A stretch of 61,075 bases of DNA from NCBI GenBank assembly GCA_017474045.1, contig JAFUHX010000004.1:1-61075 (forward strand), given 5' to 3'. The stretch is from Clostridia bacterium. Lineage in GTDB: Bacteria; Bacillota; Clostridia; Oscillospirales; Acutalibacteraceae. The notes under the pieces were generated by a model, which did not search any database, was not told the DNA's origin, and was given only the letters and a program-made list of their open reading frames with translations. A program made the translations under genes and the position numbers. Below are positions 41,681-60,878 of the stretch, one piece after another (position 1 is the stretch's first letter; the number at the start of each line of letters is the position of its first letter).

Positions 41681-43606
41681 ATGAAAAAAAATATTTATTT
41701 AGCTCAGATAAATTATCTTCACGGCAAATCCACCTTTCTCCCCTACGCTGTGGGAACGCTTATTGCCTGCGCTGAAGAAAACAAAGAGCTTTCTGATTAT
41801 TATTGCTTTAAAGAGCCTTTTTTTATAAGAGAAAAAATTGATAGTATTCTTGAGCGAACAGATGAGCCTTTTCTTTTCGGCTTTTCAAACTATATCTGGA
41901 ACCATGAATTCAACAAGGCTCTGGCAAAAGAAATAAAAAAGACCTTTCCCGATTGCCTTATTCTCTTCGGCGGTCACCATATCTCTCCCGACACTTCCTT
42001 AATGGAAGAAGAGGATTATATTGACCTTATGTGTTTCGGCGAAGGCGAAGAAACCTTTTCTGCTCTCCTGCTTGCTTTGAAAAACAACATTCCTCTAAGC
42101 CGGGTTCCCAATATTGCCTTCAGAGAAAACGGAAAGCCTGTTTTTTCATTCAGCAAAAAAGCTGAGAGAATCGATTATCCCTCACCCTATCTCACAGGCG
42201 TTTTCGACTCTATTCTTGAAAAATATCCTCAGATTGATTTTCACGCCGTTATTGAAACCAATCGCGGCTGCCCCTATAACTGCGCCTATTGCGACTGGGG
42301 AAACCTTCAATGTAACATCAGGTTTTTCCCTGAAGAGAAGGTTATCAAAGAGCTCAACTGGCTTTCTGACCATAACATCAGCGGTTTCGGCTGCGCCGAC
42401 GCCAATTTCGGAATGTTTGAGCGCGACGAAAAATTTGTTGACGAAATGGTTCGCCTTCATAAAGAAAAAGGCGTTTTGTCGCGTTTTCAGGTGTCCAGCG
42501 CAAAAAACAGTAACGACCGCGTTTTCAGAATTTCTCAAAAGCTTAATGAATGTGGAATGGATAAAGGCGCAACTCTTTCTTTTCAGTCTTTAAGCCCCAC
42601 CGTTCTTGAAAACATCAAGCGAAAAAACATTCCTGTTGAAACCTTTACTTCTCTTTTAAATCGCTATAACGAAGCCGGAATTGCAACATATTCCGAGCTT
42701 ATTCTCGGTCTTCCGGGCGAAACCTTTCAAAGCTTTGTTGAAGGAATTGACATTTTGCTCAACGCAGGGCAACATAGCTCAATCTATATTCACGATTGTG
42801 AGTGGCTTCCCTGCTCCGCCATGGGAAACAAAGACTATACCCTTAAACACGCAATCAAATTTGTTCTCGTTCCCCTTAATGAACCGCATACACTTATTGA
42901 CAACAGCGAAGAAATTGGTGAATTCTCTCGCCTTATTGTTGAAACAAAAACAATGTCGCGGGAAGATTGGGTAAAAATGAACATTTATTCCGCTACAATT
43001 CAATGCTTCCACCACGAAGGTCTTCTGATGCTTTTTGCCCTTTATCTTCACCACGAAAAAGGTTTGAGCTATTCTGAGTTTTATATGGCCTTTATTGATT
43101 ATATGTTCTCTCAGAAAAACAGCGTTGGCGGAAAGGTTTTTGAAAAGCTTAAAAACCGTTTTGAAGAAGTTACAAAAGGCAACGCCGGAATTGTTTGGGA
43201 AGACAGACGCTTCGGCGATGTTGGCTGGCCATCAGAAGAATTTGCCTTTTTAAATGTTGCAATTGAAAAAGAAACATTTTATGAGGAAATTAAAGCTTTT
43301 CTGAAGCAATATTTTGAAGATGAGCTTCTTTTTGAAAATCTTTTCCTGTTTCAAAAAAGCGTTATAAAGCTCCCCTTCATTGAAAAAATTGATTTTGACT
43401 GTGAGTATGATTTCAAAAGCTATTTTTCAAATCTTTTATGCGGAAACACTGCTGTTCTTGAGAAAAAGAGCTGCCGCAACACTGTCCTCAAGCCAATCAG
43501 CTGTAACAGTTGGAAGGATTATGCTCGTTTTATTGTCTGGTATGGCAGAAAAGACAGCCGAAACATTTATATTGACGAAATAGACACGCAATTCAAGGAG
43601 GTTTAA
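41681..43606 (+). CDS. Cobalamin-binding-type radical SAM protein, 640-aa type (rSAM-1)
   Basis: A 641-aa cytoplasmic protein. Residues about 1-150 form a Rossmann-like domain resembling B12-binding domains (ILFGGHHI, FGEGEETF), without the DxHxxG His motif. The radical SAM core begins at C197-C201-C204 (CPYNCAYC, then DW) and includes LILGLPGETFQSF. Residues about 430-641 form an extra alpha-helical domain ending with IVWYGRK. Such enzymes usually methylate or rearrange unactivated carbons. ATG 41681 follows AAGGAG by 6 nt. It opens a four-gene operon, 2 nt before rSAM-2. The substrate is unknown. Confidence 0.85.
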   Translation: MKKNIYLAQINYLHGKSTFLPYAVGTLIACAEENKELSDYYCFKEPFFIREKIDSILERTDEPFLFGFSNYIWNHEFNKALAKEIKKTFPDCLILFGGHHISPDTSLMEEEDYIDLMCFGEGEETFSALLLALKNNIPLSRVPNIAFRENGKPVFSFSKKAERIDYPSPYLTGVFDSILEKYPQIDFHAVIETNRGCPYNCAYCDWGNLQCNIRFFPEEKVIKELNWLSDHNISGFGCADANFGMFERDEKFVDEMVRLHKEKGVLSRFQVSSAKNSNDRVFRISQKLNECGMDKGATLSFQSLSPTVLENIKRKNIPVETFTSLLNRYNEAGIATYSELILGLPGETFQSFVEGIDILLNAGQHSSIYIHDCEWLPCSAMGNKDYTLKHAIKFVLVPLNEPHTLIDNSEEIGEFSRLIVETKTMSREDWVKMNIYSATIQCFHHEGLLMLFALYLHHEKGLSYSEFYMAFIDYMFSQKNSVGGKVFEKLKNRFEEVTKGNAGIVWEDRRFGDVGWPSEEFAFLNVAIEKETFYEEIKAFLKQYFEDELLFENLFLFQKSVIKLPFIEKIDFDCEYDFKSYFSNLLCGNTAVLEKKSCRNTVLKPISCNSWKDYARFIVWYGRKDSRNIYIDEIDTQFKEV

Positions 43607-43608
43607 CT

Positions 43609-45093
43609 ATGAGAGTTTTACTTATCAATCCTGCTCCTGAGCATTATACAAGAGCACGCTGTGCACCCTTGGGTGTTCTTTCAATCGGCAGCTATCTTCA
43701 GTCAAAAGGGCACGATGTAAAGGTTCTCAACAGAGCTGTTGTTTCAACGGATATTGAAGCAGAGCTTGACTCCTTCAGACCCGATTTTATCGGCTGCTCT
43801 CTTTTGTCAGTTATGGCTGTCAAGGATTGCCTTATGATTTCAAAGGCGGCAAAGAAAAGAAACATCTGCGTCATCTGGGGCGGACCCTATGTCTCGGCTT
43901 CTCCCGAAATGACTCTTGAGCTCGGATACATTGATTTCATTTGTCTTGGTGAAGGCGAAGAAACCTGGCTTGAGGTTGTTGATACAGCCGAAAAGGGAGA
44001 AGATCTCTATTCAATAAAGGGTCTTGCCTATATAAAGAACGGAAAATTTGTCAGAAATGCTGACAGAGAATTTATGGATCTTACCCTTCTTCCGCCTATC
44101 GATTACAGTCTTATCGACATTCAGAAAACCTTTTATAAGAACTATGAATATGACGGAATAATGGGAATGTATATCTCAAAGGGCTGTAACGGACACTGCA
44201 CCTTCTGCTACAACCGCGACTTTTTCAGCAACTGCCGCCGCACAAGAGATGTGAAGCTTTTCATTGAAGAAGCCCGTCTTCTCAAGGAAAAATACGGTAT
44301 GAAGGCAATTGCTTTTACCGATGAGCTTTTCGGCTACAACAAGGAAACGCTTCACGAAATATGTAACGCTCTGATTGAAGCTGATCTCGGTCTTCATTGG
44401 GGTGGCATGACTAAAATTGGGCTGTTTGACAAGGAAGATTTCGAGCTCATGCATAAAGCAGGCTGCCGCTGGCTTGAATTCGGTGTTGAAAGCGGATCAA
44501 AAAACACCCTTAAAAGAATGAAAAAAGCCCTCAATCCTGAAATGGTTGAAAAGGACCTGAAAAACTGCCGCGATGTCGGAATTATTACGCTCAGCTATTT
44601 CATTGTCGGCTTCCCCGGTGAAACACCCGAGGATCTCAAGGCAACCTGCGAGCTTGTGAATAAAATCAGCTACACAAAATTCGTCTGTTCCTATTTCAGT
44701 CCCCTTCCCGGCTCTGAAATTTTTGATGAGGTTGTTTCGCAGGGAAAATACACTCCTCCCAAGTCAATAAAGGAATGTATGAAAACAAGAATTTTCTATT
44801 CTCCGAAGCCGAACCTTTCAAGCGTTAAATCGCTTGATCTCAAGGTTGTCAGATGCCACATCCTTTGGAGCAGCTTTACTAAAAAGAGCTTTATTGAAAA
44901 CGGAAAACTTGACTATTCCGTTGCAAAAAAAGATATTGTTGACGTACTGAAAAGTCTCAAAGGCCACGGCTTTAAGGAAGGAGTCATTCAATTTATAGCA
45001 AGCGCTTATGAATTCCTGGACATCTTCTTCTACGGAAACTTCTTCCCTCATATCGTCAAAAAATACGGCCTTGATTTAAAGGAGAAAAAATGA
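43609..45093 (+). CDS. B12-binding-type radical SAM protein, 490-aa type (rSAM-2)
   Basis: A 494-aa protein of BchE-like layout. The N-terminal domain opens MRVLLINPAPEHYTRARCAP with VIWGGPYVS and LGEGEETW, but has no DxHxxG motif. The radical SAM core has C193-C197-C200 (CNGHCTFC, then Y) and FIVGFPGETPEDL. The C-terminal 110 residues are specific to this subfamily. It has two close paralogues directly downstream, and its last four bases overlap the next start. The reaction is unknown; related proteins methylate or cyclise lipids, pigments and peptides. Confidence 0.87.
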   Translation: MRVLLINPAPEHYTRARCAPLGVLSIGSYLQSKGHDVKVLNRAVVSTDIEAELDSFRPDFIGCSLLSVMAVKDCLMISKAAKKRNICVIWGGPYVSASPEMTLELGYIDFICLGEGEETWLEVVDTAEKGEDLYSIKGLAYIKNGKFVRNADREFMDLTLLPPIDYSLIDIQKTFYKNYEYDGIMGMYISKGCNGHCTFCYNRDFFSNCRRTRDVKLFIEEARLLKEKYGMKAIAFTDELFGYNKETLHEICNALIEADLGLHWGGMTKIGLFDKEDFELMHKAGCRWLEFGVESGSKNTLKRMKKALNPEMVEKDLKNCRDVGIITLSYFIVGFPGETPEDLKATCELVNKISYTKFVCSYFSPLPGSEIFDEVVSQGKYTPPKSIKECMKTRIFYSPKPNLSSVKSLDLKVVRCHILWSSFTKKSFIENGKLDYSVAKKDIVDVLKSLKGHGFKEGVIQFIASAYEFLDIFFYGNFFPHIVKKYGLDLKEKK

Positions 45094-46565
45094 GAGTTCT
45101 GTTTATAAATCCTGCAATGGAAAGATATACCCGTCAGGTAAGTATGCCTTTGGGAATGATGTCTATTGCAACATATCTTCAGGCAAACGGACACACGGTT
45201 AAAATTATTGACCGAACAATTAAAACAACCAACATCAAAAAAGAGCTTGAAGCTTTTTCCCCTGATATTGTGGGCGTTTCGGTGTTTTCACTCAAATCCT
45301 TTACTGATGCAAGAAAGGTAAGTCTTGCAGCCAAGGCTTACGGCGCAAAGGTTGTTTGGGGCGGAATTTTTGTTTCTTTGGATACGGAATTCACCTTCAA
45401 CAACATTGACATTGACTTTATCTCTATCGGTGAAGGTGAAGCCACCTGGCTTGACCTTGCAGATACCCTTGAAGCAGGCGGCGACCCGACAACAGTGGCA
45501 GGTCTTGCTTATAAAAAAGACGGCAAGGTCATTTACACTGCTGAAAGAGAATTTATGGATCTTGCTCTTTTGCCGCCGATTGATTTCACCCTTGTCGATG
45601 TTGACAGATATCTCGGTGCAATGTATGGCTGCAAGAAAACAGCTCTTCTTTATATGTCAAAGGGCTGTTACGGTCAATGCACCTTCTGCTTCAACAAAAA
45701 GTTCCACCGTCAGTGCTACCGTGTGCGTCCTGTTGAAACTTTCCTTAAGGAAGTTGAATATCTGATGAAAAACCACGATGTTGACTGCATTTATTTTGCA
45801 GACGAGTTGTGGTGCAGAAACAAGGAAGAGCTGAAATATCAATGCAACGCCTTTATTGAATCCGGCTTAGGCTTCAAATGGTTCACGGAAACCCGTGCGG
45901 GCTATTTTGACAAGGAAGACTACGCTCTGATGAAAAAGGCAGGCTGCATTTGTGTTGCCTTCGGCATTGAAACCGGTTCCCGTTCAATGATGAAGAAAAT
46001 TAAAAAGAATCTTCCCTACGACAAAATTGCCGAAACCTTTGAAAACTGCAAAGCGGTTGACCTTGTTTCAATTGCCAATTTCATAATCGGCTTTCCCGAC
46101 GAAACAGAAGAGGAATTCAGAGATACTATTAACATGGCAATGAATATCGCTTCAACTCAGCGCACCTTCTTTTTCTTCATGCCCGGCCCGGGAAGTGAGC
46201 TTTATGAGGAGCTTGTTGAAAGCGGAAGATACACTCCGCCAAAAACCTTCAAGGACTACACAAACATTCGCTTTTTCTATTCGCCCAAGCCGAATTTTTC
46301 TCAGATTCCGTCAAGGGATCTGAAGGTCGTGAGATCATACTTTTTGTGGAAGGGTTTTTCAAGAAAATATTTTTCCGAAACCTCACGAAAATATGATATT
46401 GCAAAAAAAGATATTGTTGATATTCTCAAACAGTTTAAGGGACACGATCTCAGATTTGCAATTCAACTTATTCTCAGCTCAGCTTATGAATTTATTGACA
46501 TTTTTTCTTATGCACATTTCTTCCCGTCAATAGTAAAAAAATATAACCTTAAAATAGACGAATAA
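45090..46565 (+). CDS. B12-binding-type radical SAM protein, 490-aa type (rSAM-3)
   Basis: A 491-aa paralogue of rSAM-2. It keeps the same opening (MRVLFINPAMERYTRQ), the EGEATWLDL loop, C193-C197-C200 (CYGQCTFC, then F) at identical positions, and FIIGFPDETEEEF. The end (DIFSYAHFFPSIVKKYNL) matches the tails of rSAM-2 and rSAM-4. The 4-nt overlap with rSAM-2 (ATGA) indicates coupled translation. The cysteine-loop residue after the cluster differs (Phe instead of Tyr), so the three may act on successive positions or intermediates. Confidence 0.87.
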   Translation: MRVLFINPAMERYTRQVSMPLGMMSIATYLQANGHTVKIIDRTIKTTNIKKELEAFSPDIVGVSVFSLKSFTDARKVSLAAKAYGAKVVWGGIFVSLDTEFTFNNIDIDFISIGEGEATWLDLADTLEAGGDPTTVAGLAYKKDGKVIYTAEREFMDLALLPPIDFTLVDVDRYLGAMYGCKKTALLYMSKGCYGQCTFCFNKKFHRQCYRVRPVETFLKEVEYLMKNHDVDCIYFADELWCRNKEELKYQCNAFIESGLGFKWFTETRAGYFDKEDYALMKKAGCICVAFGIETGSRSMMKKIKKNLPYDKIAETFENCKAVDLVSIANFIIGFPDETEEEFRDTINMAMNIASTQRTFFFFMPGPGSELYEELVESGRYTPPKTFKDYTNIRFFYSPKPNFSQIPSRDLKVVRSYFLWKGFSRKYFSETSRKYDIAKKDIVDILKQFKGHDLRFAIQLILSSAYEFIDIFSYAHFFPSIVKKYNLKIDE

Positions 46566-46597
46566 CAAAATAAAATTTTAAAATAGAGGTGTAAAGC

Positions 46598-48070
46598 TTG
46601 AATGTTCTGTTTATAAATCCAACAACATCACGTTATACAAGATCCATCTCTGTTCCGCTGGGATTGCTTTCAATAGCATCTTATGTTGAAAGCAATGGAC
46701 ATAAGGTAAGAATTTACGACAGAACCGTGGAAAAGATCAAACTGCAGGAGGTCGTTTCCGAATTTGAACCCGAACTTGTCGGCATTTCTCTTGTTTCATA
46801 TAAATCTATAGGAGATACGCTTGACCTTGCCCGTACTCTGAAAGAGCATAGCATACCCGTTATTCTCGGCGGTCCTCTGCCCTCTGTTTTGACGGATATG
46901 ACTCTCGCTTATGACTTTATTGATGCTGTTTCAATTGGAGAAGGCGAGGAAACCTGGCTTGAGCTTACGGAGTTTTATCAAAACAGAAAGGGAAGCCTTA
47001 ACGAAATTGCAGGTCTAGCCTTCAAAGACGAAAATGGAAAAACTGTATATACTGCAATACGACCCTTTGTTGATCTTTCGAAGCTTCCGCCACTTAATTG
47101 GAGTCTCATAAACGTACCTAAGTATTTTCAGTCATCCTATGGCTGTAAAAAAATGCTCTATCTTTATTCGGCAAAGGGTTGCCCCTTCAGCTGCACCTTC
47201 TGCTACAATAAAGACTTTCACAGAAGCACTTATCGCAAGCGTCCTCTTGATGTACTTCTTGATGAAATTAAGTTTCTTGTCACAAACCACAACCTTGACG
47301 GCGTTTATTTTGCCGATGAAATGTGGTGCAGAAGTCGCGATGAAATGCATGAAATCTGCGACAGCCTGAAAAATCTTAAGCTTGATTTTGTATGGGGTTG
47401 TCAGACGAGAATAGGCATTTTTGATGAGGAAGACTTTGTTTATATGTATAATTCAGGTTGCCGCTGGATTTTCTTCGGCATCGAAAGCGGCTCTGAATGT
47501 ATGCTTGAAAGGATAAACAAGAAAATAAAATTTGATAAAATCGTAAAGAGCTTCAGCGATTGCAAGAAAGCAAATATCGCTTGTATCGGTTCTTTTATTG
47601 CAGGCTTTCCCGATGAGACCGTGGATGATTTGAAAAAGACCGTCAGCCTTATAAAACAACTTGACACCAGCCTCATAAATATGAATTATCTCGCTCTCAT
47701 TCCCGGTTCAGAGATTTATAAAAACCTTATTGAAAATGGGAAACACAAAGAGGTTGAAACCCTCGAAGAATTCGGCAAAAAGAATCCTCTTGACAAGATG
47801 GAATACAATTACAGCGACATTCCCGACATTGACATCAAGGTTGTAAGAGCTTATTATATGTGGCGCAGCTTCACCGCCAACGATGTTCCCGGAACAGAAA
47901 AGTTCGGCTTTGCAAAAAAGGTTATCACCGATGCTATCAAATCAGTTAAAACAGGAGATTTTGTAAGCTTCGTTTTTTCAACTGCCGTTGCAGGCATTGA
48001 GTTTTTGAAAGTCTTTTTTTACTCCCACTTTTTCCCGTCTGTCAAAAAGAAATACGATCTGAACAAATAA
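46598..48070 (+). CDS. B12-binding-type radical SAM protein, 490-aa type (rSAM-4), TTG start
   Basis: A 490-aa third member of the tandem set. It opens MNVLFINPTTSRYTRSISVP. The cluster is C195-C199-C202 (CPFSCTFC, then Y), followed by FIAGFPDETVDDL. It is more divergent than rSAM-2 and rSAM-3, and its codon use is somewhat different. The start is TTG at 46598 after GAGGTG; no ATG gives the conserved N-terminus. It starts 32 nt after rSAM-3 and ends at a terminator shared with the minus-strand operon. Confidence 0.85.
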   Translation: MNVLFINPTTSRYTRSISVPLGLLSIASYVESNGHKVRIYDRTVEKIKLQEVVSEFEPELVGISLVSYKSIGDTLDLARTLKEHSIPVILGGPLPSVLTDMTLAYDFIDAVSIGEGEETWLELTEFYQNRKGSLNEIAGLAFKDENGKTVYTAIRPFVDLSKLPPLNWSLINVPKYFQSSYGCKKMLYLYSAKGCPFSCTFCYNKDFHRSTYRKRPLDVLLDEIKFLVTNHNLDGVYFADEMWCRSRDEMHEICDSLKNLKLDFVWGCQTRIGIFDEEDFVYMYNSGCRWIFFGIESGSECMLERINKKIKFDKIVKSFSDCKKANIACIGSFIAGFPDETVDDLKKTVSLIKQLDTSLINMNYLALIPGSEIYKNLIENGKHKEVETLEEFGKKNPLDKMEYNYSDIPDIDIKVVRAYYMWRSFTANDVPGTEKFGFAKKVITDAIKSVKTGDFVSFVFSTAVAGIEFLKVFFYSHFFPSVKKKYDLNK

Positions 48071-48077
48071 AAAAAAT

Positions 48078-48131: not shown

Positions 48132-49946
48132 TTACAGCTTTCTCTTATACGTAAGCCTGTAGTCTCTGACATAATCTCTGCCGTAACGGACAAGATACAT
48201 AAGAATTGAATCGCTCTCTGTGAAAGAATGAGGAAACAGCCTGTCTGCCGTATCTTCAAGATATTTTCTTTCAAAGCTGTTTCTTCTTTCTTTAACCTCT
48301 TCCATGGTCTGAGTCAGGGAATGATATTTATAGGAAATATGAAGCTCTCCGTTTTCTGTAAAATCGGTTATTCCCACGGAAGAAGTGTTGTTTTTTAAAA
48401 TTGAATTTTTCTTCAGCGCAAAGTTTGAAGGAGTGCAGGTATTAACAAGCTCATGATCATAAATTACATCAATAGTTGATTGAAGCTCTTCCTGAGTTTC
48501 GGTGGGATAACCCAGAAGAAAAGTGCAAAGATTCCAAAGTCCTGCTTCGCGGGAGTCTTCAAGAATTTTTCGGCGGTAGCTTAAATCAATGCCTTTGTTC
48601 ATAAGCTTCATAATTCGCTCAGACTGTGACTCATAGCCCCACATGAAAAACCTTGCGCCTGATTCATAAAGATTTTTTAAAACTTCAGGAGTGAAGGTTT
48701 TTTCAAGTCTTGCAAAAGAATAATAATAAATTTCTAAATTGCGTTTTTTAACCTCTTTTGCAAATTCATTATAAAACTTCGGCGGAACAGCTTCATCAAC
48801 AAAGTTAAACAGCCTGCTGTTATATTTTTTTGAAAGATATTCAACCTCGTCAACAGCGCGCTTAACGCTCTTCATGTCAAATTTTTGCTGACCTGTGTAA
48901 AAATCACAAAAGCTACATTTTCCCCAATAGCAGCCCTTTCCCAGCTGAACGGGAATTACTGTTTCGGGAGAAAAATATTTTGAAAAATCATATCCTTCAA
49001 AATCAGGATAAGCCACCCTTTCAAGATTTAAAACAGGGGCTCTTGAATTTGTTTTAACAGACGAGCCTTCATCGGAATAAACCAGAGAATGAACGTCTTC
49101 AATTTTTCTTTTTCCGGCAATATATTCAGCAAGCTCAACTGTTGCTGTTTCGCCGTCGCCGATTGAAAGATAGTCGCAGTATTCCTCAAAAATCTGAGGA
49201 ATTTTTTTCAGGTCTTCTTCAATTTTATAAATATAGTTTCCGCCGATTGCAATTTTTGCCTTGGTATGTTTTTTGAGAAGTCTTGCCAGAGTAAGCCCCG
49301 GAACCAACTGGCTTAAATCCGTAACGGAAAGAGCAATAAGGTCATACTCTGAAAAATCTTTTTCAGAAAGCTTCTTTTCAAAATAGGGCAAAAACATATT
49401 AACGCTTTCATGTTTGCATTGATAATCAACATCTTTAAAGTCATAGGTAAAAATTGGATTAGCAATGAAATTGTCAAGCATTATTCTTGAAGGAACAAAA
49501 GGAAGTGAAGCAATATCTAACGCATCAGAGATTATGTCTTTGGCTCTGTAGAGCTTTTCAGGGTCATAAAAAAGCTCTTTTGTTTTAAAAACAGAAATTG
49601 CCCATTCAATTTCTTCAATTGTTTTTTCGGCGTTACCGTTATCAGCTTTAAAATAATCTTTTATTATGTTTTTTCTGATTTCAAAAGTGTTTCTCAGCTT
49701 GATTTTTATTCCTGCACCATAGCTTTCGTCAGCTTGAAAGGCTTCTTCCTCAGAAAGAAATTTTTTTGCTTTTTCAAGGCTTTTTTCAAGATAATCAACC
49801 GATAAAATATCGTTGAAAAACTCGATATTAAAATCATAGGTTTCTGCCTCGAAGCCTGAGTTTTTCAGTTGCCCTGCAAGTAATGCGCCTGCAAGATAGG
49901 GACTGACGGGATACCACTGAGGAACCGCCGCAAAAAGAAATTTCAT
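48132..49946 (-). CDS. B12-binding-type radical SAM protein with CX4CX2C cluster (rSAM-5)
   Basis: A 604-aa protein. It opens with PQWYPVSPYLAGALLAGQLK, a cobalamin-domain-like start, and has a long helical insert (about 50-190) before IAIGGNYIYKIEEDL and LSIGDGETATVEL. The radical SAM cysteines are C339-C344-C347 (CYWGKCSFC, then DF), spaced CX4CX2C instead of CX3CX2C. FLLGYPTETQEEL follows. The end, YLVRYGRDYVRDYR, recalls the [WY]-x-GR ending of the 640-aa type. It overlaps the glycosyltransferase gene by 4 nt and is the last gene of its operon. Confidence 0.85.
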   Translation of the reverse strand: MKFLFAAVPQWYPVSPYLAGALLAGQLKNSGFEAETYDFNIEFFNDILSVDYLEKSLEKAKKFLSEEEAFQADESYGAGIKIKLRNTFEIRKNIIKDYFKADNGNAEKTIEEIEWAISVFKTKELFYDPEKLYRAKDIISDALDIASLPFVPSRIMLDNFIANPIFTYDFKDVDYQCKHESVNMFLPYFEKKLSEKDFSEYDLIALSVTDLSQLVPGLTLARLLKKHTKAKIAIGGNYIYKIEEDLKKIPQIFEEYCDYLSIGDGETATVELAEYIAGKRKIEDVHSLVYSDEGSSVKTNSRAPVLNLERVAYPDFEGYDFSKYFSPETVIPVQLGKGCYWGKCSFCDFYTGQQKFDMKSVKRAVDEVEYLSKKYNSRLFNFVDEAVPPKFYNEFAKEVKKRNLEIYYYSFARLEKTFTPEVLKNLYESGARFFMWGYESQSERIMKLMNKGIDLSYRRKILEDSREAGLWNLCTFLLGYPTETQEELQSTIDVIYDHELVNTCTPSNFALKKNSILKNNTSSVGITDFTENGELHISYKYHSLTQTMEEVKERRNSFERKYLEDTADRLFPHSFTESDSILMYLVRYGRDYVRDYRLTYKRKL

Positions 49947-52527: not shown

Positions 52528-54447
52528 TTATTCCTCCGAATAGGTAATAATTTCTCTTGGATTAACCAGCAAGGTTGCGTTATAGCGCTTTCCGAACCAA
52601 ATTATTTCCCTTGCATACTCTTTCCAGTCTGAAATTATTTTTTGGGACTTGATATGAAGATTGCAATTAACCTTTTTTAAAACGGGCTTTGAGCTTTCTG
52701 AAGCCGCTTCAAAATATTTATAGAAATTATAGCCTGATTTAACTGTAACTTCATTTTTTCCGGGCAGTCTTATAAGGCTTTTCTGATAGCTCAGAAGCTC
52801 ACCAAACAAGGCCTCTTCTATTGAATATGACCTGAGGAAAGGCTCAATTTCTTTCCAGAAAGCTTCGCTGTGAAAAGCCATTTCAAGAAATGCACCCTCT
52901 TCAAAATACCAGCCGGTTTTTCCGAAAACATCGCGGCTATAGGTCCAATCGGCTTTTTCGGTGTCTGCCTTTCGTCTGTAAAGCTCTTTGAAAAAGCTGT
53001 TTAAAAAGCCTTTGTTTTCTTTATATATAAAATCATATAAGTCATTATAGAACTTATAGTAGGAAACACCTTTTTCAAGGTTGAGATAAATTGCAAAATA
53101 TCTAAGCAAACCAAGGTGGTGAAAGGTCTGAAGAATAACGGAAAACATGCATGCCTTGACCCAGTCGCTCTTTGGCATGGTTGCCGTTTCGGTTATAATA
53201 TCGAAATATTCCTCAACGCCGTTGAACTCGGGATTATAGTGAATTCCGAGCAAGGGAATTTTTGAGGTTTTTATTCCGTGTTTTTCTCTGTATTCGGCGT
53301 CACCCATTTTTGAATTGGGATAAACCTGACAGTCATAAACTGTCATCGACTTGTTCTGACCCGATTCAAGAAGGCGGCAGATTCCTTCGCAAAAGCTTTC
53401 ATAGGTTTCGCCGGGAAGACCCAGAATAAGCTCAGTATAGGTGGGAATTCCGGCTTCGGTGTAGCGAGAATCAAGCTCAGCAAAATGCTCGAGGGTCAGA
53501 TTTTTTCTTCCGATATTTTCAAGAGTTTTTGCGTTCAGAGACTGATAGGCAAGAGTTACACCCTTGTCAATCTGATTTTTATTTAAAATATAGCCCGCTT
53601 CAAAAACGGTTTCGTTGCTTTCTTTGGCGTAGCAAGGCTTAAAAACATCGGGATAGCCATATTTTTCTTTTTGCTCCACAACATAGCGGGCAATTTCAAC
53701 ATCACGGCTGAGTATTCCGAAATTAGCGTCAGCACAATAGCAATATTTAATTTTGTTTTTCGCTATCCATTCAATTTCTTTTTTGATTTTATCCATTGGA
53801 AAAGGTCTGACCTTGCGGGTAAAACACCATTCGCAATATGTGCAGCCATAAGGGCAACCTCTGTTGGTTTCCAAAGTGGCATGAAACTCAATTTCAGGGT
53901 TTTGTTTAATAATATTATCAAAAACACCGCTGAGATAAGGTGAAGGATAGTCTGAAAGGTCGCATGGATGATAAAACTCTGTGGTTACAGTTTTTCCCTC
54001 TTGTCTGAAAGACAAATTGGGAACAGAAGACAAATCTGAACCTTCTTTTTCACATTTGAGGAAAAGCGCCGTTGTTTCTTCGCCCTCATTATGCATGAGA
54101 TAATCTATAAAGGGATATTCATTTAAAAAAGAGGCATCTCCCGGAACGCTGTGACCGCCGAAAATGATTTTTACATCAGGATAGATTTCTTTCAGCCGCA
54201 TGGCAAGAAGCTTGTTATATTCAATATTCCACGTGTAGCAGGAAAAAGCCACATAAGACGGATTATCGAAGCGTTTGATTACGTCTGAAATTTTTTCCCT
54301 CATAACAACAATGTCGGGAATTTCATAATAATCGGCTATTTCTTTGTTGCTTTTCAGGTAGGCAGCAATGCAACCGACAGAATAAGGCAAAAAGCAAGGA
54401 GAGGAATATGACACACCTATTTGAACCAAATAAAATCTTTTTTTCAC
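52528..54447 (-). CDS. Cobalamin-binding-type radical SAM protein, 640-aa type (rSAM-7)
   Basis: A 639-aa protein closely following the 640-aa layout. The N-terminal domain has SCYTWNIEYNKLLA and IIFGGHSVPGDASF, the core C198-C202-C205 (CPYGCTYC, then EW) and LILGLPGETYESF. The C-terminal domain has FHHLGLLRYFAIYL and ends IIWFGKRYNAT. An extra Cys follows the EW pair (EWC), shared only with rSAM-10. It is separated from rSAM-6 by 2 nt and lies 39 nt after rSAM-8. Confidence 0.86.
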   Translation of the reverse strand: MKKRFYLVQIGVSYSSPCFLPYSVGCIAAYLKSNKEIADYYEIPDIVVMREKISDVIKRFDNPSYVAFSCYTWNIEYNKLLAMRLKEIYPDVKIIFGGHSVPGDASFLNEYPFIDYLMHNEGEETTALFLKCEKEGSDLSSVPNLSFRQEGKTVTTEFYHPCDLSDYPSPYLSGVFDNIIKQNPEIEFHATLETNRGCPYGCTYCEWCFTRKVRPFPMDKIKKEIEWIAKNKIKYCYCADANFGILSRDVEIARYVVEQKEKYGYPDVFKPCYAKESNETVFEAGYILNKNQIDKGVTLAYQSLNAKTLENIGRKNLTLEHFAELDSRYTEAGIPTYTELILGLPGETYESFCEGICRLLESGQNKSMTVYDCQVYPNSKMGDAEYREKHGIKTSKIPLLGIHYNPEFNGVEEYFDIITETATMPKSDWVKACMFSVILQTFHHLGLLRYFAIYLNLEKGVSYYKFYNDLYDFIYKENKGFLNSFFKELYRRKADTEKADWTYSRDVFGKTGWYFEEGAFLEMAFHSEAFWKEIEPFLRSYSIEEALFGELLSYQKSLIRLPGKNEVTVKSGYNFYKYFEAASESSKPVLKKVNCNLHIKSQKIISDWKEYAREIIWFGKRYNATLLVNPREIITYSEE

Positions 54448-54486: not shown

Positions 54487-56406
54487 TTATTTTTCTGTTA
54501 CATCGTCTTTATATGATGACCAGCCCATTCTTCCGTACCAGATTACGAACTTTCCGAAATCTTCCCAATTTTTCATAACGTTACTGTCACGCATTACAAG
54601 CGTATGTTCTTTTTCTTTTAAGGGCTGAACATCGTTAACATAAACATTCTTAAGATAGTTATGAATATCATATTTCAAAGAAACTGTTTTTTCTTCGTCA
54701 TAAGGCTTTCTCATAATGTTTTTCTGATAGCTGAGAAGGTCGCTGAAAACATCTTCAGCAATATCATAGCTTTTTAAATAGGGAACAATTTCGTCATAAA
54801 ATTTTTCAAGCTGCGACAAAACGTGAAGCACCACATATTCGTGGTCATCCCAGACTATTTCGCCGCAAGGGCTGAACATGAGCTTTTTGTTTATTATTCC
54901 TTTAGAAAGCTCATCTGACTTTTCTTTAATATCAAAATAAAGCTTTGAAATAAAAAGCTCAGGGTTGCTTTCAAAATAATTCAAAGCACCATCGTAAAAC
55001 TTTTCATAAGGAACCTTTTTTTCGTTGAAAAGATAAATTGCAAAAGCTCTTAAAAGTCCGTTTCCGTGAAGCGCCTTGACCATATAGTAATAGGCAGTTG
55101 CTCTGACCCACATTTCGCGGCTCATTGTGTTGGTTTCAACAATAATTGTGTTATATTCAGGAACGCTGAAGGCGTCGTTATTGAAATGAGGTCTGATTAT
55201 TTCAGAGCGAACCGTTTTGATTTTGAATTTTTCAATATAATCCTTCTGCCCCATAACAGCGTTAGGCAACAAAATGCAGCCATAAACCTCGAAAACAAAA
55301 TGCTGACCGATTTCAAAAAGCTTTCCTATTCCGTCAATAAAGCTTTCATAGGTTTCGCCGGGAAGACCCAAAATAAGCTCAGAATAAGTCTTCATGTTTT
55401 CTTTGTTATATTCAGTCAACAGGCTCTTATAAAAATCCAGAGAGGAGTTTGTTCTTCCGATGTTTTCCAGAACAGTCGGCGACAAGCTCTGAAAAGAAAG
55501 AGTTGCACCTATTCTGTCAAATTCACATTCCTTAAACTTTTTAACAATTGAAAAAACATTTTTATAGTTGTTCTTTGCGTAATTCATTCTCATTCGTTCA
55601 GGATAGCCGGTTGCCTTTTTTGCCTTAACAAGCTCATCAGCAATTTCCAGGTCTCTTTTGAACATTCCGAAGTTCGCGTCAGCACCCCAGACAAAAGCAA
55701 TTTTGTGTTCAGACATCCAGCGGATTTCTTCTTTTACTCTTTCAAAGGGAAAAAGACGGGTTTTTGCCTGAAGAAGACCCCAATCGCAATAAGCGCATTT
55801 ATTGGGACAGCCGCGGCTTGTTTCCAGAATTGCATTAAAGGTAATTTCAGGGTGCTTTTCAACAATTTCATCAAACCAGCCTTCAAGATATGGTGAAGGG
55901 TAATCAAGATTTGACTGAAGAACCGTGGGAGTTCGAACAAAACCGCCCTCTGAAGTTCTGAAGGAAATGTTATTTACGCCCTCGAAGCTCTTATTTAAAC
56001 AAAAGCTTTCCAACAAGGCTTTTATTGTTTCTTCGCCTTCGCCGTGACAAAGAACATCAATGAACCAATAATCCTCAAGCATTTGAAAATTATCGGGAAT
56101 ATCGTGTCCTCCGAAAACAATTAAACATTGAGGAAATTTTTCTTTTATGGCTTTTGCAAGAAGCTTGTTGTATTCCGTGCTCCAGCAATAGCTTGAAAAG
56201 CCAACAAAGGCAGGCTCTTCCATTCGCGAAACAACCTTTTCAACGTCTTCACGCAGAAAAATAAACTCTTTAAATAAGCAGTCAGCCTTCACCGTTTCAC
56301 TTTGAAAGGCGGAGGCAACAAGTATTCCGGCCGTATATGGCAAATAGGCATTTTGAGTCCCGGAGCTTGCCGAAACATCAACCTGAACAAAATAAATATT
56401 TTTCAT
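54487..56406 (-). CDS. Cobalamin-binding-type radical SAM protein, 640-aa type (rSAM-8)
   Basis: A 639-aa protein, first gene of the minus-strand operon. The N-terminal domain has SSYCWSTEYNKLLA and IVFGGHDIPDNFQ, the core C200-C204-C207 (CPNKCAYC, then DW) and LILGLPGETYESF. The C-terminal domain ends VIWYGRMGW. It is driven by a consensus promoter (56474-56445) placed back-to-back with the promoter of the plus-strand cupin operon. The ribosome site is weak (GAGGCTTTTA). Confidence 0.86.
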   Translation of the reverse strand: MKNIYFVQVDVSASSGTQNAYLPYTAGILVASAFQSETVKADCLFKEFIFLREDVEKVVSRMEEPAFVGFSSYCWSTEYNKLLAKAIKEKFPQCLIVFGGHDIPDNFQMLEDYWFIDVLCHGEGEETIKALLESFCLNKSFEGVNNISFRTSEGGFVRTPTVLQSNLDYPSPYLEGWFDEIVEKHPEITFNAILETSRGCPNKCAYCDWGLLQAKTRLFPFERVKEEIRWMSEHKIAFVWGADANFGMFKRDLEIADELVKAKKATGYPERMRMNYAKNNYKNVFSIVKKFKECEFDRIGATLSFQSLSPTVLENIGRTNSSLDFYKSLLTEYNKENMKTYSELILGLPGETYESFIDGIGKLFEIGQHFVFEVYGCILLPNAVMGQKDYIEKFKIKTVRSEIIRPHFNNDAFSVPEYNTIIVETNTMSREMWVRATAYYYMVKALHGNGLLRAFAIYLFNEKKVPYEKFYDGALNYFESNPELFISKLYFDIKEKSDELSKGIINKKLMFSPCGEIVWDDHEYVVLHVLSQLEKFYDEIVPYLKSYDIAEDVFSDLLSYQKNIMRKPYDEEKTVSLKYDIHNYLKNVYVNDVQPLKEKEHTLVMRDSNVMKNWEDFGKFVIWYGRMGWSSYKDDVTEK

Positions 56407-56474: not shown

Positions 56475-56539
56475 CAACAGCCCCTTTAAACAAAGTCGTT
56501 TTCAAGAAAGAAGCAGCCTTTTTGCCACTTCGCTTTCGG

Positions 56540-56568
56540 TTGACATTCGGTTATTACTATGTTAAAAT
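56540..56568 (+). promoter_or_regulatory. Promoter of the cupin and rSAM-9/10 operon
   Basis: TTGACA (56540-56545), 17 nt, TAAAAT (56563-56568). It lies 65 nt from the divergent promoter, so one regulator could control both. Confidence 0.75.
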
Positions 56569-56605
56569 TATATGATTAAATATATTTTTGAAAAGTGTGG
56601 TTTTA

Positions 56606-56974
56606 ATGAAGCTTTTAGAAATTTTAGCGCCCGATTTTGTTTTTGAAGATGAACGAGGCTGTCTTTCACAAATTACCCATGAGCCATTCGCTCAGGTGAA
56701 TTCAGTTTTTACAAAAAAAGGCGCCGTCAGAGGCAATTATCACTACCACAAAACAACCAAAGAAGCTTTTTTTGTTTTTTCAGGAGAAATTAAAGTTTCG
56801 CTTTATTTAAACGAGCAAAAGGAAGAATATTTTTTTAAAACCGGCGATATGTTTTTAATTCATGAAAATGTCAGACACCGTTTTGAATTTCTGGAAGACA
56901 CCCGACTTGTTGTCTTTTATACATCACGGGTTGAGCTTGAAGACGGAACAAAAGATATTATAAACGATGAATGA
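56606..56974 (+). CDS. Sugar epimerase/isomerase-like cupin
   Basis: A 122-aa single-domain cupin. GNYHYHKTTKEAFFVFSG holds the His/His/Glu metal-type motif, and GDMFLIHENVRHRFEF the second cupin motif. The start (DERGCLSQI) resembles FdtA/WxcM-like proteins, which act on dTDP-sugars, and similar cupins in polysaccharide clusters. It may shape the sugar used by the family 2 transferase; that is inference. I prefer ATG 56606, though the ribosome site is weak; TTG 56588 is possible. The next gene starts 52 nt later. Confidence 0.7.
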   Translation: MKLLEILAPDFVFEDERGCLSQITHEPFAQVNSVFTKKGAVRGNYHYHKTTKEAFFVFSGEIKVSLYLNEQKEEYFFKTGDMFLIHENVRHRFEFLEDTRLVVFYTSRVELEDGTKDIINDE

Positions 56975-57026
56975 TTTTTAATTTTAAGCTTTTTTAGTTG
57001 TATTGTTAAAACAAGGTGTATTAATT

Positions 57027-58955
57027 ATGAAAAATGTTTATTTTGTTCAGGCTAACGATGTTTACGGAACCGAAAAGAAATCAACCTATATTCCCTATGC
57101 CACCGGTTGCATTGAAGCTTATTGTTTGAAAAACGAAGTTATTAAAAATAACTACAGCTTCGGAAAAATTATTTATTCAAGAATTCCGGTTGAAAAGGTT
57201 ATTAAGCAAATTGAAAATCCCTTTATGGTTTTGTTTTCATGCAGCGTATGGAATATGGAATATAACAAGGCTGTTGCCGAAAAAATAAAGAGTGTTTTCC
57301 CTGAATGTTTTATTGTTTTCGGCGGACATAATATTTCAGCAAACGAAGAAGACCTGAATAAATATTGGTTTGTTGATTTTTTAACTCACCGCTTCGGCGA
57401 AGAACCCACAGAAGCCCTTCTGGAAGGTCTTGCCCTCAACAAAGACCTTAAAGAAATTTCAAACATTTCTCTTCGCGATGAAAACGGCAAGGCGATTACC
57501 ACAAAATATGCTCCACAAACTGAAACCGATTATCCCTCCCCTTATCTCGAAGGAATTTTTGACGACATTTTAAACGACGACATTAATTTTTCCTGTCTTT
57601 TTGAATCAAACAGAGGCTGTCCTAATTCCTGCTCATTTTGTGACTGGAGCTCATTGAAATCAAAGGTCAGACTTTTTCCGATGGAGAGAGTTATTGCTGA
57701 AATTGACTGGTTTGTTAAAAATAAAATTGAATATATCTATTGCACAGACGGAAACTTCTGTTTGTTCGACCGCGACGCAGAAATTGCAGACTACGTTGTT
57801 TCATGCAAAGAAAAATTCGGTTATCCTCAGATTTTCAAGGTGTTTTTTACCAAAAACAGATTTAACTTTGTTTTCGATATAAGCACAAAGTTTTTCAACA
57901 GCGGCCTTGACAAAGCCAAAACCATTTCTTTTCAAAGCATGAATCCCGAGGTTCTGAAAAACGTGGGACGAAAAAATATTTCAACAGAAATGTTCCGAGA
58001 CCTGATGAAAAAATATAATGAACTGAACATTTCAACCTTTTCAGAGCTTATTCTCGGTCTTCCGGGAGAAACCTTTGAATCTTTTTGCAGCGGCGTTAAC
58101 TCTTTGATTGAAAACGGTCAGCATTATGCAATAAACATTTATCCCTGCGAAGTTCTGCCTAACGCCGAAATGGGACAGAAGGAATATCAGGAAAAATTCA
58201 AGATTAAATTCACCCGCGTTCCGTTTAACCTTATTCACTCAAACAGCGAAAAAAATGAAACTGATGTGGTTGAATATTCTGAATATATTACCTCAACTTT
58301 TTCAATGAATGAAGAGCAGTGGAAACGTTCTTTGATTTTTGCCTCTTATGTTCAAGGGCTTCACAATCTGGGGCTTCTTCGCGCCGTTGCCATTTATTTC
58401 AGGCATGAGCACGGCCTCAGCTATGACGAGTTTTACAACCAATTAATCGACTTTTCAAAAGGCAAAGAGAACTCTTTAATTCAAAAAGTATATAAAAAAA
58501 TCAGCTGTCTTTGCAGCGGAATAATAAACGGAAGCAACGGTCTTGTTACCACCTGCTCAGGCCTTGGAAATATGTGGTGGGGCTTTGATGAGTTTATTTT
58601 TCTGGAATTTTATAAAAGCCTCAAAGCCTTCTATCAGGAGGTTAAAGAGTGCTTCACCTCAAAATTCGGCCAAAGCGAAGAAATCGATGCTTTGTTTAAA
58701 TATCAGCTTGATATTATTAAAAAAATCAATCAGCCACGCGTTTCAATCTCCTCAGAATATGACTTCTATTCTTATTATAACAATATCTATTCAGACAGCT
58801 ATGAAAAGCTTCAGAAGAAGAAAGTCACTCTTTTGATTGAAGACACTTCAGTGGTAAAAACCTTTGCTGATTTTGCAAGAGAGGTTGTCTGGTATGGCCG
58901 CAACAGGCGGGCAACCGACTACACAAGCACCAATTATTCAGCAAAAATTATTTAA
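57027..58955 (+). CDS. Cobalamin-binding-type radical SAM protein, 640-aa type (rSAM-9)
   Basis: A 642-aa protein. The N-terminal domain has SCSVWNMEYNKAVA and IVFGGHNISANEED. Unlike the others its nucleotide-loop region reads HRFGEEPTEALL. The core is C198-C202-C205 (CPNSCSFC, then DW), with LILGLPGETFESF. The ADANFG phrase of its relatives is TDGNFC here. The C-terminal domain ends VVWYGRNRRAT. ATG 57027 follows AAGGTGTA; an extension to 57003 has no site. It is most similar to rSAM-10, 21 nt downstream. Confidence 0.86.
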   Translation: MKNVYFVQANDVYGTEKKSTYIPYATGCIEAYCLKNEVIKNNYSFGKIIYSRIPVEKVIKQIENPFMVLFSCSVWNMEYNKAVAEKIKSVFPECFIVFGGHNISANEEDLNKYWFVDFLTHRFGEEPTEALLEGLALNKDLKEISNISLRDENGKAITTKYAPQTETDYPSPYLEGIFDDILNDDINFSCLFESNRGCPNSCSFCDWSSLKSKVRLFPMERVIAEIDWFVKNKIEYIYCTDGNFCLFDRDAEIADYVVSCKEKFGYPQIFKVFFTKNRFNFVFDISTKFFNSGLDKAKTISFQSMNPEVLKNVGRKNISTEMFRDLMKKYNELNISTFSELILGLPGETFESFCSGVNSLIENGQHYAINIYPCEVLPNAEMGQKEYQEKFKIKFTRVPFNLIHSNSEKNETDVVEYSEYITSTFSMNEEQWKRSLIFASYVQGLHNLGLLRAVAIYFRHEHGLSYDEFYNQLIDFSKGKENSLIQKVYKKISCLCSGIINGSNGLVTTCSGLGNMWWGFDEFIFLEFYKSLKAFYQEVKECFTSKFGQSEEIDALFKYQLDIIKKINQPRVSISSEYDFYSYYNNIYSDSYEKLQKKKVTLLIEDTSVVKTFADFAREVVWYGRNRRATDYTSTNYSAKII

Positions 58956-58976
58956 CTTAATTTTCGGAGACAACAG

Positions 58977-60878
58977 ATGAAAAACATTTATTTTGTTCAG
59001 GTAGGATTTGAATTTGACGGCTCGGTTTATTTACCCTACGCCGTCGGAACAATAATTGCCTACTGCCAAAATGACCCAAAAATTAAAAATAAATATGCTT
59101 TTCCCAACATTATTTTCAAAAGAGAAAAGCTTTCGTTTGCCATGGAAAAAATTGTTGACCCATATATCGTTGCTTTTTCCTGCAGCGTTTGGAACATGGA
59201 ATACAACAAAGCTCTGGCGAAAAAAATCAAGGAAAAATTTCCTGATTGTCTTGTTGTTTTCGGCGGTCACAGCGTAAATGAAGATGCAAGCCTTCTGAAA
59301 GAAGAAAAAAATGTTGACATCTTAATGTTTGGCGAAGGCGAAAAAACCTTTTCCTCTCTTCTTTCTGACCTTTCCTCTTCTTCCCTTGAAAAAACCGAAA
59401 ACATCGCCTTCAGAAAAGGCGATGAAATAATCAGAACCGAAAGAAGCTATTGCGAAAGTCTTGAAGACCTTCCCTCACCCTATCTCAGCGGTGTTTTTGA
59501 AAAAATTATTGAAGAAAACAAGGGAATTGAATTTCTTTCAGTTCTTGAAACAAACAGAGGCTGCCCGTATTCCTGCGCCTATTGCGATTGGTGCGCTGGA
59601 AAGAAGATGAGATTTTTTCCAATGGAAAAAATCATGGCTGAAATCAAGTGGCTTTCTGAAAATAAAATTACCTATTGTTTTTGCGCCGATTCAAACTTCG
59701 GAATGTTTGAAAGAGACCTCAGCATTGCTGAAGCACTTATCAGCGCAAAAAGGAAAAACGGTTACCCCGAGGTTTTCAGACCCTGCTATGAAAAAAACAG
59801 CGATGAGCGTGTTTTTAAAATCTGCAGCGCATTAAACAGCGAAGGAATGGATAAGGGCGCAACCATGGCCTATCAGACCCTTTCTGACGAAGCGCTTTTC
59901 AATATCGGAAGAAAAAATCTTACCATGGAGCATTTTTCTTCTCTTATGAAAAAATATAACGAAGCCGGAATTCCGACTTATTCAGAGCTGATTCTGGGAC
60001 TTCCCGGAGAAACAAAAGAAAGCTTCTGCAAGGGAATTTGTCGCCTTCTTGAAAACGGTCAGCATAATTCCCTGAGTGTTTATCATTGCGAGGCTCTTCC
60101 AAATTCTGACCTGACAAGACCGGAATACATTAAAAAACATCAGATTGAAATTATTAAAGTTGCCTTTAACCACATTCACAGCGCACCAAAAAAAGACGAA
60201 GAGGTTAAAGAATTTTCCTATCTCGTTCGCTCAACGGCAACGCTCAGTCGGGAAGACTGGGTTTATTCAAACCTTTTTTCAGTTTGCGTTCAATGCTTCC
60301 ACAGTCTCGGTATTCTAAGATTTTTTGCCATATATCTCTATTTTGAAAAAAATGTTTCATATTTTGATTTCTATTCTTCTTTGCTCCGATATATTTTTGA
60401 AAGCGAAGGAAGACTCAATAAGCTCTGGCAAGACTTTAAAGAAAAATATGAAAGCTCCCTTGCAGGTGACTGGAACTATTATAATGAAAGCTTCGGCAAT
60501 GTAACCTGGTTCTTTGAGGAAGGCGCTTTTATTGAAATCGTTTCTGATTACCCTTCTTTCATGAAAGAGCTTTTTCCCTTCCTTGAAAAATTCAACATTG
60601 AAAAAGAGCTTTTGACTGAGCTTTATCTTTATCAGGAGCTTCTTATCAGAAAGCCTTTTGAAAGAGAAAAGAAAGCCGCTTTCAGCTATGATTTCCACAG
60701 CTTTTTTGAAAACGCAACCAAAGGCAAGCCTTCAGCTCTTAAAAAGAAAGAGCTTGTTTTAAATGTTGTTCCGAAAAAAGAATATAAGCTTCTTTCAGAA
60801 TACTCAAAAGAAACTGTCTGGTTCGGAAGAAGAAGAGGCGCAACTATATATTCCGGTAATGAAATTATTTTTGACTGA
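58977..60878 (+). CDS. Cobalamin-binding-type radical SAM protein, 640-aa type (rSAM-10)
   Basis: A 633-aa protein, last of the cluster in the window. It has SCSVWNMEYNKALAKKIKE and VVFGGHSVNEDASL, then C196-C200-C203 (CPYSCAYC, then DWC), ADSNFGMF and LILGLPGETKESF. The C-terminal domain has FHSLGILRFFAIYL and ends TVWFGRRRGAT, the clearest copy of this end motif. GGAG lies upstream of the ATG. A dispersed repeat follows as the probable terminator. Whether more cluster genes lie beyond the window cannot be seen. Confidence 0.87.
   Translation: MKNIYFVQVGFEFDGSVYLPYAVGTIIAYCQNDPKIKNKYAFPNIIFKREKLSFAMEKIVDPYIVAFSCSVWNMEYNKALAKKIKEKFPDCLVVFGGHSVNEDASLLKEEKNVDILMFGEGEKTFSSLLSDLSSSSLEKTENIAFRKGDEIIRTERSYCESLEDLPSPYLSGVFEKIIEENKGIEFLSVLETNRGCPYSCAYCDWCAGKKMRFFPMEKIMAEIKWLSENKITYCFCADSNFGMFERDLSIAEALISAKRKNGYPEVFRPCYEKNSDERVFKICSALNSEGMDKGATMAYQTLSDEALFNIGRKNLTMEHFSSLMKKYNEAGIPTYSELILGLPGETKESFCKGICRLLENGQHNSLSVYHCEALPNSDLTRPEYIKKHQIEIIKVAFNHIHSAPKKDEEVKEFSYLVRSTATLSREDWVYSNLFSVCVQCFHSLGILRFFAIYLYFEKNVSYFDFYSSLLRYIFESEGRLNKLWQDFKEKYESSLAGDWNYYNESFGNVTWFFEEGAFIEIVSDYPSFMKELFPFLEKFNIEKELLTELYLYQELLIRKPFEREKKAAFSYDFHSFFENATKGKPSALKKKELVLNVVPKKEYKLLSEYSKETVWFGRRRGATIYSGNEIIFD

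Follow-up and report, generated by a model that had tools for sequence, protein, structure and literature searches.

The window analysed here is the whole of contig C55 (61,075 nucleotides) from a Clostridia bacterium genome of 2.5 Mb in 105 contigs (genomes, contigs and loci carry our own G, C and L labels). Positions 41681–60878 are filled by ten full-length cobalamin (B12)/radical S-adenosylmethionine (SAM) genes, one family 2 glycosyltransferase (GT2) gene and one cupin gene. In related genomes, genes of this array are embedded, in a conserved manner, in loci of predicted GDP-heptose-type genes, and this embedding is the new element. We propose that the array belongs to a pathway for a surface glycan and that its B12 radical enzymes methylate carbons of a heptose linked to GDP or to a lipid, a reading to which we assign a probability of roughly 55%. 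It rests on the enzyme families, on paralogue groups that cross genera, on co-occurrence, on the conserved order in which relatives arrange array and heptose-type genes, and on four heptose-type genes of the organism's own genome.

Organization of the array

The ten radical SAM proteins form three paralogue families, A (five members), B (three) and C (two). The features of the array and of the contig end are as follows.

41681..43606, + strand: A-a, TokK/CysS-like B12 radical SAM protein, 641 residues; Pfam B12-binding and Radical_SAM; 228 bits with the KedN5-family model (cut-off 700)
43609..45093, + strand: B1, B12 radical SAM protein, 494 residues, HpnJ/BchE/PhpK-like; scores below the curated thresholds of these families
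45090..46565, + strand: B2, B12 radical SAM protein, 491 residues; Pfam/NCBIfam models and cysteine motif
46598..48070, + strand: B3, B12 radical SAM protein, 490 residues; Pfam/NCBIfam models and cysteine motif
48132..49946, − strand: C2, radical SAM protein resembling OxsB and methyltransferases of ribosomally synthesized and post-translationally modified peptides (RiPPs), 604 residues, CX4CX2C; grouped apart from C1
49943..50680, − strand: GT2, soluble family 2 glycosyltransferase, 245 residues; Pfam 27.5 bits; dolichyl-phosphate-mannose synthase (DPMS)-like fold
50690..52525, − strand: C1, OxsB-like B12 radical SAM protein, 611 residues, CX4CX2C; predicted model with PDB match OxsB
52528..54447, − strand: A-d, TokK/CysS-like B12 radical SAM protein, 639 residues; orthologues in G138 and G087
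54487..56406, − strand: A-c, TokK/CysS-like B12 radical SAM protein, 639 residues; groups with genes of G138, G087, G073, G098 and G133
56588..56974, + strand: cupin, 128 residues; Pfam Cupin_2 and Polysacc_synt_C
57027..58955, + strand: A-b, TokK/CysS-like B12 radical SAM protein, 642 residues; Pfam/NCBIfam models and cysteine motif
58977..60878, + strand: A-e, TokK/CysS-like B12 radical SAM protein, 633 residues, heptose-locus member; phmmer matches to TokK and CysS
60880..61075, no strand: interspersed repeat and contig break; nearly identical copies occur at numerous contig ends and at some sites inside contigs

All ten radical SAM proteins score above the Pfam Radical_SAM cut-off, and the gene content given in the original prediction, made from the sequence of this stretch, stands. 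The Pfam B12-binding model scores above its cut-off in six of them (41681, 43609, 45090, 46598, 52528 and 58977) and gives a significant match under the cut-off in three (50690, 54487 and 57027); among the A proteins, these two classes hold three and two members, respectively. The cobalamin type claimed for all ten is matched by this model in nine, and 48132 (C2), which has no match to the B12-binding model, was assigned to the set because it is 45% identical to 50690. An LPGET-type core motif, likewise claimed for the whole set, occurs in exact form only in the five A proteins; family B has FPGET or FPDET, and family C has YPTET. The three predicted transcription units lie at 41681–48070 (+), 56406–48132 (−) and 56588–60878 (+) and are tightly packed as described, although a spacing of 2–4 nt applies only in part. 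Gaps are 2, −4 and 32 nt in the first unit, 39, 2, 9 and −4 nt in the second (from 56406 down), and 52 and 21 nt in the third; all gaps in the array lie between −4 and 61 nt, except for a divergent region of 181 nt.

Searching the 2.5 Mb genome with PF02310 recovered nine of the ten array genes and two further places: a B12/radical SAM-like gene broken across two frames (L016 1166–2910, contig C16), and an 813-residue frame on contig C8 that, judged by its size, is probably methionine synthase. Since PF02310 finds only these two other places, the concentration of ten genes in one array is not a matter of chance.

Family A resembles TokK and CysS

The A proteins are 37–42% identical to the first member, 41681. 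The family profile matches TokK with an E-value of 2.6e-133 over profile positions 4–574, the enzyme core, and CysS with 2.5e-74; A-e alone matches them in phmmer with 1.1e-84 and 1.2e-52, respectively. The CX3CX2C motif is present in all five window proteins, and its strict pattern in 141 of the 145 A sequences from the window and the loci (one locus counted twice). An invariant tryptophan of the family (W73 of 41681) aligns with Trp76 of TokK, as counted on the printed alignment, and this column of the 145 sequences contains tryptophan in 142, a gap in two and tyrosine in one. According to the accessible part of PMC13331322, Trp76 sits below the cobalt in TokK, which is a methyltransferase, and CysS and ThnK are probably alike; the accessible part of PMC8992657 describes several methylations on one substrate by each of TokK and CysS. 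These resemblances point to methyl transfer as the probable reaction of the A enzymes.

In a tree of 59 A proteins, most of the window paralogues fall into supported groups together with proteins of other genera, 41681 (A-a) being the least well placed. Because these groups span genera, the A paralogues represent lineages older than the genus rather than recent copies. A simple recent tandem amplification is ruled out, the paralogue groups being common to several genera.

Association with GDP-heptose-type genes

Fifty-five loci related to A-e were collected using two peptide patterns from this protein, a scan that is hence biased to A-e relatives. They were mapped with models of the heptose genes built from contig C57 of the own genome and from G073, G043, G138 and G015; L113, L116, L119 and L124 therefore match these models by construction. 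The typical locus parts are a Cj1427-like C4-dehydrogenase, the cupin, A genes, the GT2, an RmlD-like reductase, an HddA-like kinase and a fusion of a nucleotidyltransferase with a GmhB-like protein. Of 29 loci with a best-segment identity to A-e of at least 57%, 27 contain at least one of four heptose genes and 25 at least two, with the cupin in 21 and the GT2 in 17. L117 and L118 are identical, so that 26 of 28 distinct loci contain heptose genes; L121 and L151 are without them. The order cupin, A genes (often with GT2), RmlD-like gene is found in 16 of these close loci.

Gene order also ties the window paralogues to these loci. A single stretch of L114 contains the cupin, A-b, A-e, the RmlD-like and HddA-like genes and A-a, followed by C2, GT2, C1 and A-d in inverted orientation; it thus combines most of the window set with two heptose genes, and L123 and L135 are similar. 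The best matches of A-d (66–67%) are in L114, L123 and L135, and the closest relative of A-b lies directly before A-e in L106, L110, L114, L119, L122, L123 and L135. B3 is the best window match for the B genes in the heptose-gene loci L111, L112, L116, L119, L120 and L149. Neighbours shared among relatives include a GHMP kinase, RmlD-like and epimerase-type short-chain dehydrogenases/reductases (SDRs), a fusion of a nucleotidyltransferase with a haloacid dehalogenase (HAD)-type protein, and multi-span membrane proteins, to which G073 adds a SIS isomerase.

In the own genome, the heptose-type genes are on contig C57 (L100 7397–11622), where a dehydrogenase gene (Epim), the RmlD-like and the HddA-like genes run in the same direction and the nucleotidyltransferase/HAD gene is divergent. 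No sequence overlap joins contig C57 to the window end. Across 150 genomes of the family, the HddA-like kinase was found in 10 of 15 genomes with family A and in 2 of 135 without it (Fisher 1.6e-10, a test that ignores relatedness; 1.2e-8 without G000, G138 and G003).

Epim matches PDB entries 6vo6 and 6vo8, which we take to be Cj1427, with an E-value of 2.2e-104 over 308 residues, and is a strong candidate for a Cj1427-type C4-dehydrogenase. The nearest solved relative of the kinase is a 'putative sugar kinase' (4usm, 8.2e-45), followed by two heptose kinases (2.3e-38 and 2e-37). The HAD part of the fusion reaches 174.3 of 178 and 146.6 of 149.6 bits with two GmhB models, 3–4 bits under their cut-offs, and a relative of GmhA beside the G073 array (152.1 of 209.45 bits) is clearer than that of the own genome. 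The case for heptose is thus strong as regards the dehydrogenase and no more than fair for the remaining sugar genes.

The glycosyltransferase, the cupin, and families B and C

The GT2 matches DPMS with a profile E-value of 1.3e-18. Its predicted model (predicted local distance difference test, pLDDT, 95) has a GT-A fold of the DPMS type, with PDB entry 5mlz as the best match (TMq 0.80). Related GT2 genes are found near A, B or C genes in 13 genomes, the own included, and a small tree was calculated from 14 GT2 proteins. The cupin matches oxalate decarboxylase and Cap5F weakly, with no assignment to a specific family, and is possibly a sugar epimerase; in heptose loci, its relatives stand ahead of A or GT2 genes.

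The B proteins, all with CX3CX2C, are of a mixed BchE/HpnJ/PhpK-like type, with MgmA, AprD4, OxsB and TsrM as solved relatives. Both window C proteins have CX4CX2C, the strict form of which is found in 11 of 14 C sequences, CX3CX2C being present in none of the 14. C1 and C2 fall into separate groups in a tree of 12 C proteins. The predicted model of C1 (pLDDT 79.5) is closest to OxsB in the PDB (1.2e-13, TMq 0.47), and the C proteins reach 136–141 of the 281.85 bits required by the RiPP methyltransferase model TIGR03975. A RiPP pathway was ruled out, no precursor-sized gene being present in the scanned gaps: the largest inner gap, of 181 nt, contains no open reading frame longer than 36 residues, and the flank at 41327–41680 none longer than 50, in a scan that excluded 60879–61075 and anything past the contig end.

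Proteins resembling flavin adenine dinucleotide (FAD)-dependent amine oxidases or desaturases, together with 2Fe-2S proteins, adjoin C genes in two genomes (L045 15906–18475; L074, G060 contig C222). They are possible redox partners of the C enzymes.

Distribution and variation

Among the 150 genomes of the family survey (own genome included; cut-off 1e-60; the number of candidates scored in each genome was capped, so that copy numbers are lower bounds), A was found in 15, B in nine and C in seven. Within the genus, A is present in 7 of 34 genomes, and in 4 of 15 of the better ones. In wider, overlapping draws, with no more than three candidates evaluated in each genome, the same cut-off gave 2 of 394 genomes of the order (the own genome and G098, of the same family) and 1 of 398 of the phylum (the own genome). 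A phylum-wide system was rejected, A being found only in genomes of the own family within these draws. Within the sampled genomes, the array is an accessory trait of patchy occurrence, confined to one family of gut Clostridia. The 55 loci belong to metagenome-assembled genomes titled Clostridia, Clostridiales, Clostridiaceae, Ruminococcaceae, Oscillospiraceae or Bacillota, many of them sampled from the gut of ruminants or other herbivores; judged by length, at least nine of their contigs are contigs of the surveyed genomes (e.g. L113/G043, L116/G015, L119/G073, L124/G138 and L133/G102).

The arrays vary in size and content. Contig C83 of G102 (20692–63575; L048, L049 and L068) contains 17 B12/radical SAM genes (seven A and ten B) in 43 kb. 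G073 has five A, one B and two C genes together with a second array of five A genes, and G087 has two A, one B and two C genes on a single contig. The A genes of G138 are spread over three contigs, and 17 of 54 loci, some of which end at contig ends, contain only one A gene. The recurrence of A, B, C, GT2 and cupin genes together in several genomes largely bears out the neighbourhood test suggested with the original prediction; the idea of a single fixed set is not supported, given the separation of members and the lower counts of C and B than of A. As a separate observation, the G102 stretch also includes a radical SAM gene without the Pfam B12-binding domain, and GHMP kinase, nucleotidyltransferase, aminotransferase and membrane genes lie in or near it.

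A plasmid origin was likewise rejected, as the 14 matching plasmid records, all from Pseudomonadota or Actinomycetota, are only 26.7–33.7% identical. One of them, plasmid p2 of Azospirillum sp. TSA2s, has a TokK-like gene (29% identical) in a glycan-type cluster (L163 5636–16965), surrounded by genes for a GDP-mannose 4,6-dehydratase, an epimerase, a transketolase and glycosyltransferases; this cluster is possibly a branched-sugar pathway. The TokK-like plasmid genes of Streptomyces and Sinorhizobium adjoin adenylation-domain genes, and the TokK-like family as a whole is therefore not tied to glycans.

Context of the window

The left neighbour of the array (39929–41326) encodes a lyase of the fumarase/aspartase type. 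On the right, the contig stops within a repeat of about 195 bp that is common to many contig ends; many of its genomic copies are 95–99% identical and others more diverged. This edge is therefore an assembly edge, and the array may be truncated there and could continue beyond 60878. By eye, the repeat contains an inverted GCATAAAAC/GTTTTATGC pair. Composition gave no signal of a foreign island (G+C 38.7% in the array vs 39.5% in window positions 1–41326), and this candidate was dropped. No B12 riboswitch was matched by Rfam at the gathering score in the window, L100, L114 or L135. Elsewhere in the window (30748–35401), genes for a histidine kinase, a VTC-domain protein, a DUF4956 protein and a Cthe_2159-type protein stand in a row resembling a polyphosphate-polymerase operon.

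Proposed pathway and alternatives

Multi-step radical tailoring of a glycosylated molecule, as originally predicted, is still the best reading and appears right in outline; the substrate class can be refined through the association with GDP-heptose-type genes, which are invisible in the window. Our proposal extends from sequence comparison to the chemistry, the heptose substrate, the product, the order of steps and the location at the surface, all of which are put conditionally here. GDP-heptose would be supplied by an isomerase together with the HddA-like kinase and the nucleotidyltransferase/GmhB-like fusion, and would be oxidized at C4 by the Cj1427-like dehydrogenase; the cupin would then epimerise the sugar and the RmlD-like protein reduce it. 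With the heptose linked to GDP or a lipid, the five A enzymes would methylate its unactivated carbons, using methylcobalamin as the donor and each acting at a position or stage of its own; the B and C enzymes would introduce further radical changes into this residue or a second one. The modified sugar would be passed by the DPMS-like GT2 to polyprenyl phosphate or another acceptor, and membrane proteins would assemble the glycan. A more tentative extension, about which we are rather doubtful, is that the heptoses carry several alkyl branches with one dedicated methyltransferase for each, that five to seventeen enzymes act per glycan repeat, and that the paralogue sets differ between species in the manner of serotypes.

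A number of results weigh against the surface-glycan proposal. The organisms considered here include no isolate with a known glycan. The C57 genes have no A genes between them and lie beside housekeeping genes, apart from contig C55; because the own copies are on another contig, adjacency of array and heptose genes is inferred from relatives. Only 5 of the 26 more distant A loci contain heptose genes, and, at the cut-off used, no HddA-like kinase was found in 5 of the 15 A-bearing genomes. HddA is the best model for the kinase, with 160 of 600 bits and the cut-off missed; a third GmhB model is clearly missed by the HAD part (116 of 250 bits); and the nucleotidyltransferase part reaches 124 of 440 bits for mannose-1-phosphate guanylyltransferase, 122 of 250 for MurU and 98 of 300 for HddC. 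The RmlD-like protein reaches no family cut-off, and the sole GmhA-like hit in the own genome, on contig C49, has 106.8 of 209.45 bits. By hydropathy count, the GT2 is without a membrane segment. In an alignment of 31 GT2 sequences, the second aspartate of the DXD motif is present in all and the first in only three (L132, L145 and L146), being lost in the window. Families A, B and C all score under the curated cut-offs of named radical SAM families. For the A proteins, scores with NF033712 (KedN5) are 215–256 bits against a cut-off of 700; by these comparisons they are homologous to that subfamily yet not filed as members of it.

The foremost alternative, in our view unlikely, retains the glycan and changes the chemistry: the enzymes would epimerise, dehydrate or rearrange sugars, as with AprD4 and OxsB. 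It is favoured by families B and C, whose nearest relatives by profile or fold are the mixed set of OxsB, MgmA, AprD4 and TsrM, and by AprD4 itself, a diol dehydratase whose solved structure includes the aminosugar paromamine (PDB entry title). Against it stand the five A proteins, whose nearest matches over the core are the methyltransferases TokK and CysS and which keep the tryptophan under the cobalt.

The wider TokK/CysS family acts in antibiotic pathways. TokK and CysS themselves belong to such pathways, according to the accessible part of PMC8992657, and the adenylation-domain genes beside other plasmid TokK-like genes are in keeping with a second alternative, in which the array makes a specialised, antibiotic-like small molecule and shares sugar genes by chance. 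We consider this improbable, since the twelve array genes include no non-ribosomal peptide synthetase, polyketide synthase, carrier or resistance gene, and the array has no room for a precursor peptide. In addition, matched neighbours (40 scanned of 326 within 8 kb) include sugar kinases, nucleotidyltransferases, SDRs, a GT2 and an aminotransferase. Ordinary genes, such as those for a tRNA synthetase and an ABC protein, are also among the scanned neighbours, and 12 of 13 neighbour proteins tested for hydropathy have at least seven membrane spans.

Tailoring of lipids, in which acyl or polyprenyl chains would be methylated or joined, has a slim chance of being correct. Family B does score on HpnJ and ladderane models, the desaturase-like and 2Fe-2S proteins beside C genes would suit such a role, and, of the scanned neighbours, one carries a domain of PI-PLC type and another resembles a prenyltransferase at a score under the cut-off. 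The array proteins nevertheless miss the curated cut-offs of these hopanoid and ladderane equivalogs by far, the best scores being 149 of 577.6 bits for HpnJ, 90 of 650 for HpnR and 121 of 360 for TIGR04072 (eight of the ten proteins; the other two are lower where listed), and the recurrent neighbour families scanned include none of lipid synthesis. That the genes are unrelated neighbours, collected through duplication in a repeat-rich genome, is hardly credible: members do separate in relatives and a repeat flanks the array, but identical paralogue groups and gene order recur in several genera.

Comparison with known systems

The A proteins are like TokK, ThnK and CysS in profile positions 4–574, the CX3CX2C motif, the B12-binding domain and the tryptophan at TokK position 76. 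The array differs in bringing five paralogues together and in having sugar-nucleotide genes, rather than antibiotic genes, as neighbours in relatives. The C pair is like OxsB and the RiPP C-methyltransferases (TIGR03975) in fold and profile, and departs from them in its sub-threshold scores, in CX4CX2C and in the lack of a precursor peptide in the scanned gaps. The GT2 shares the fold of DPMS (5mlz, a GDP-mannose enzyme), but it has no membrane domain and the first aspartate of DXD is replaced in 28 of 31 sequences.

MoeK5 and GenK/GenD1 act on sugar units, where a carbon is methylated by B12 radical chemistry as in the reaction proposed here; unlike the array, they are single steps in antibiotic pathways. 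The accessible part of PMC8992657 lists them as radical SAM methylases of moenomycin (MoeK5) and gentamicin (GenK/GenD1). In the capsule pathway of Campylobacter jejuni, GDP-heptose is modified by Cj1427, Cj1430 and Cj1428 (PMC10680097 and PMC7949155, accessible parts), proteins that include cupin and SDR types (PMC7949155). Shared with this pathway are the C4-dehydrogenase, a cupin, and candidates for a C4-reductase and for the GDP-heptose supply genes. A point of difference is that its accessible descriptions name no radical SAM enzyme: the terms 'radical' and 'C-methyl' are absent from the accessible part of PMC7949155, and 'methyl' from that of PMC10680097.

A search of a library of 5.39 million papers, with most subscription journals outside its scope, showed among the papers listed no description of B12 radical arrays combined with GDP-heptose loci, nor of any pathway with such a composition, in agreement with the original prediction. 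The system is a combination of two known kinds, the B12 radical methyltransferases and the GDP-heptose pathways of the capsule type. If the proposal is true, a vitamin that is limiting in the gut would be tied to surface chemistry, and B12 radical C-methylation would move from single steps in antibiotic pathways to a multi-enzyme cell-envelope system of gut bacteria.

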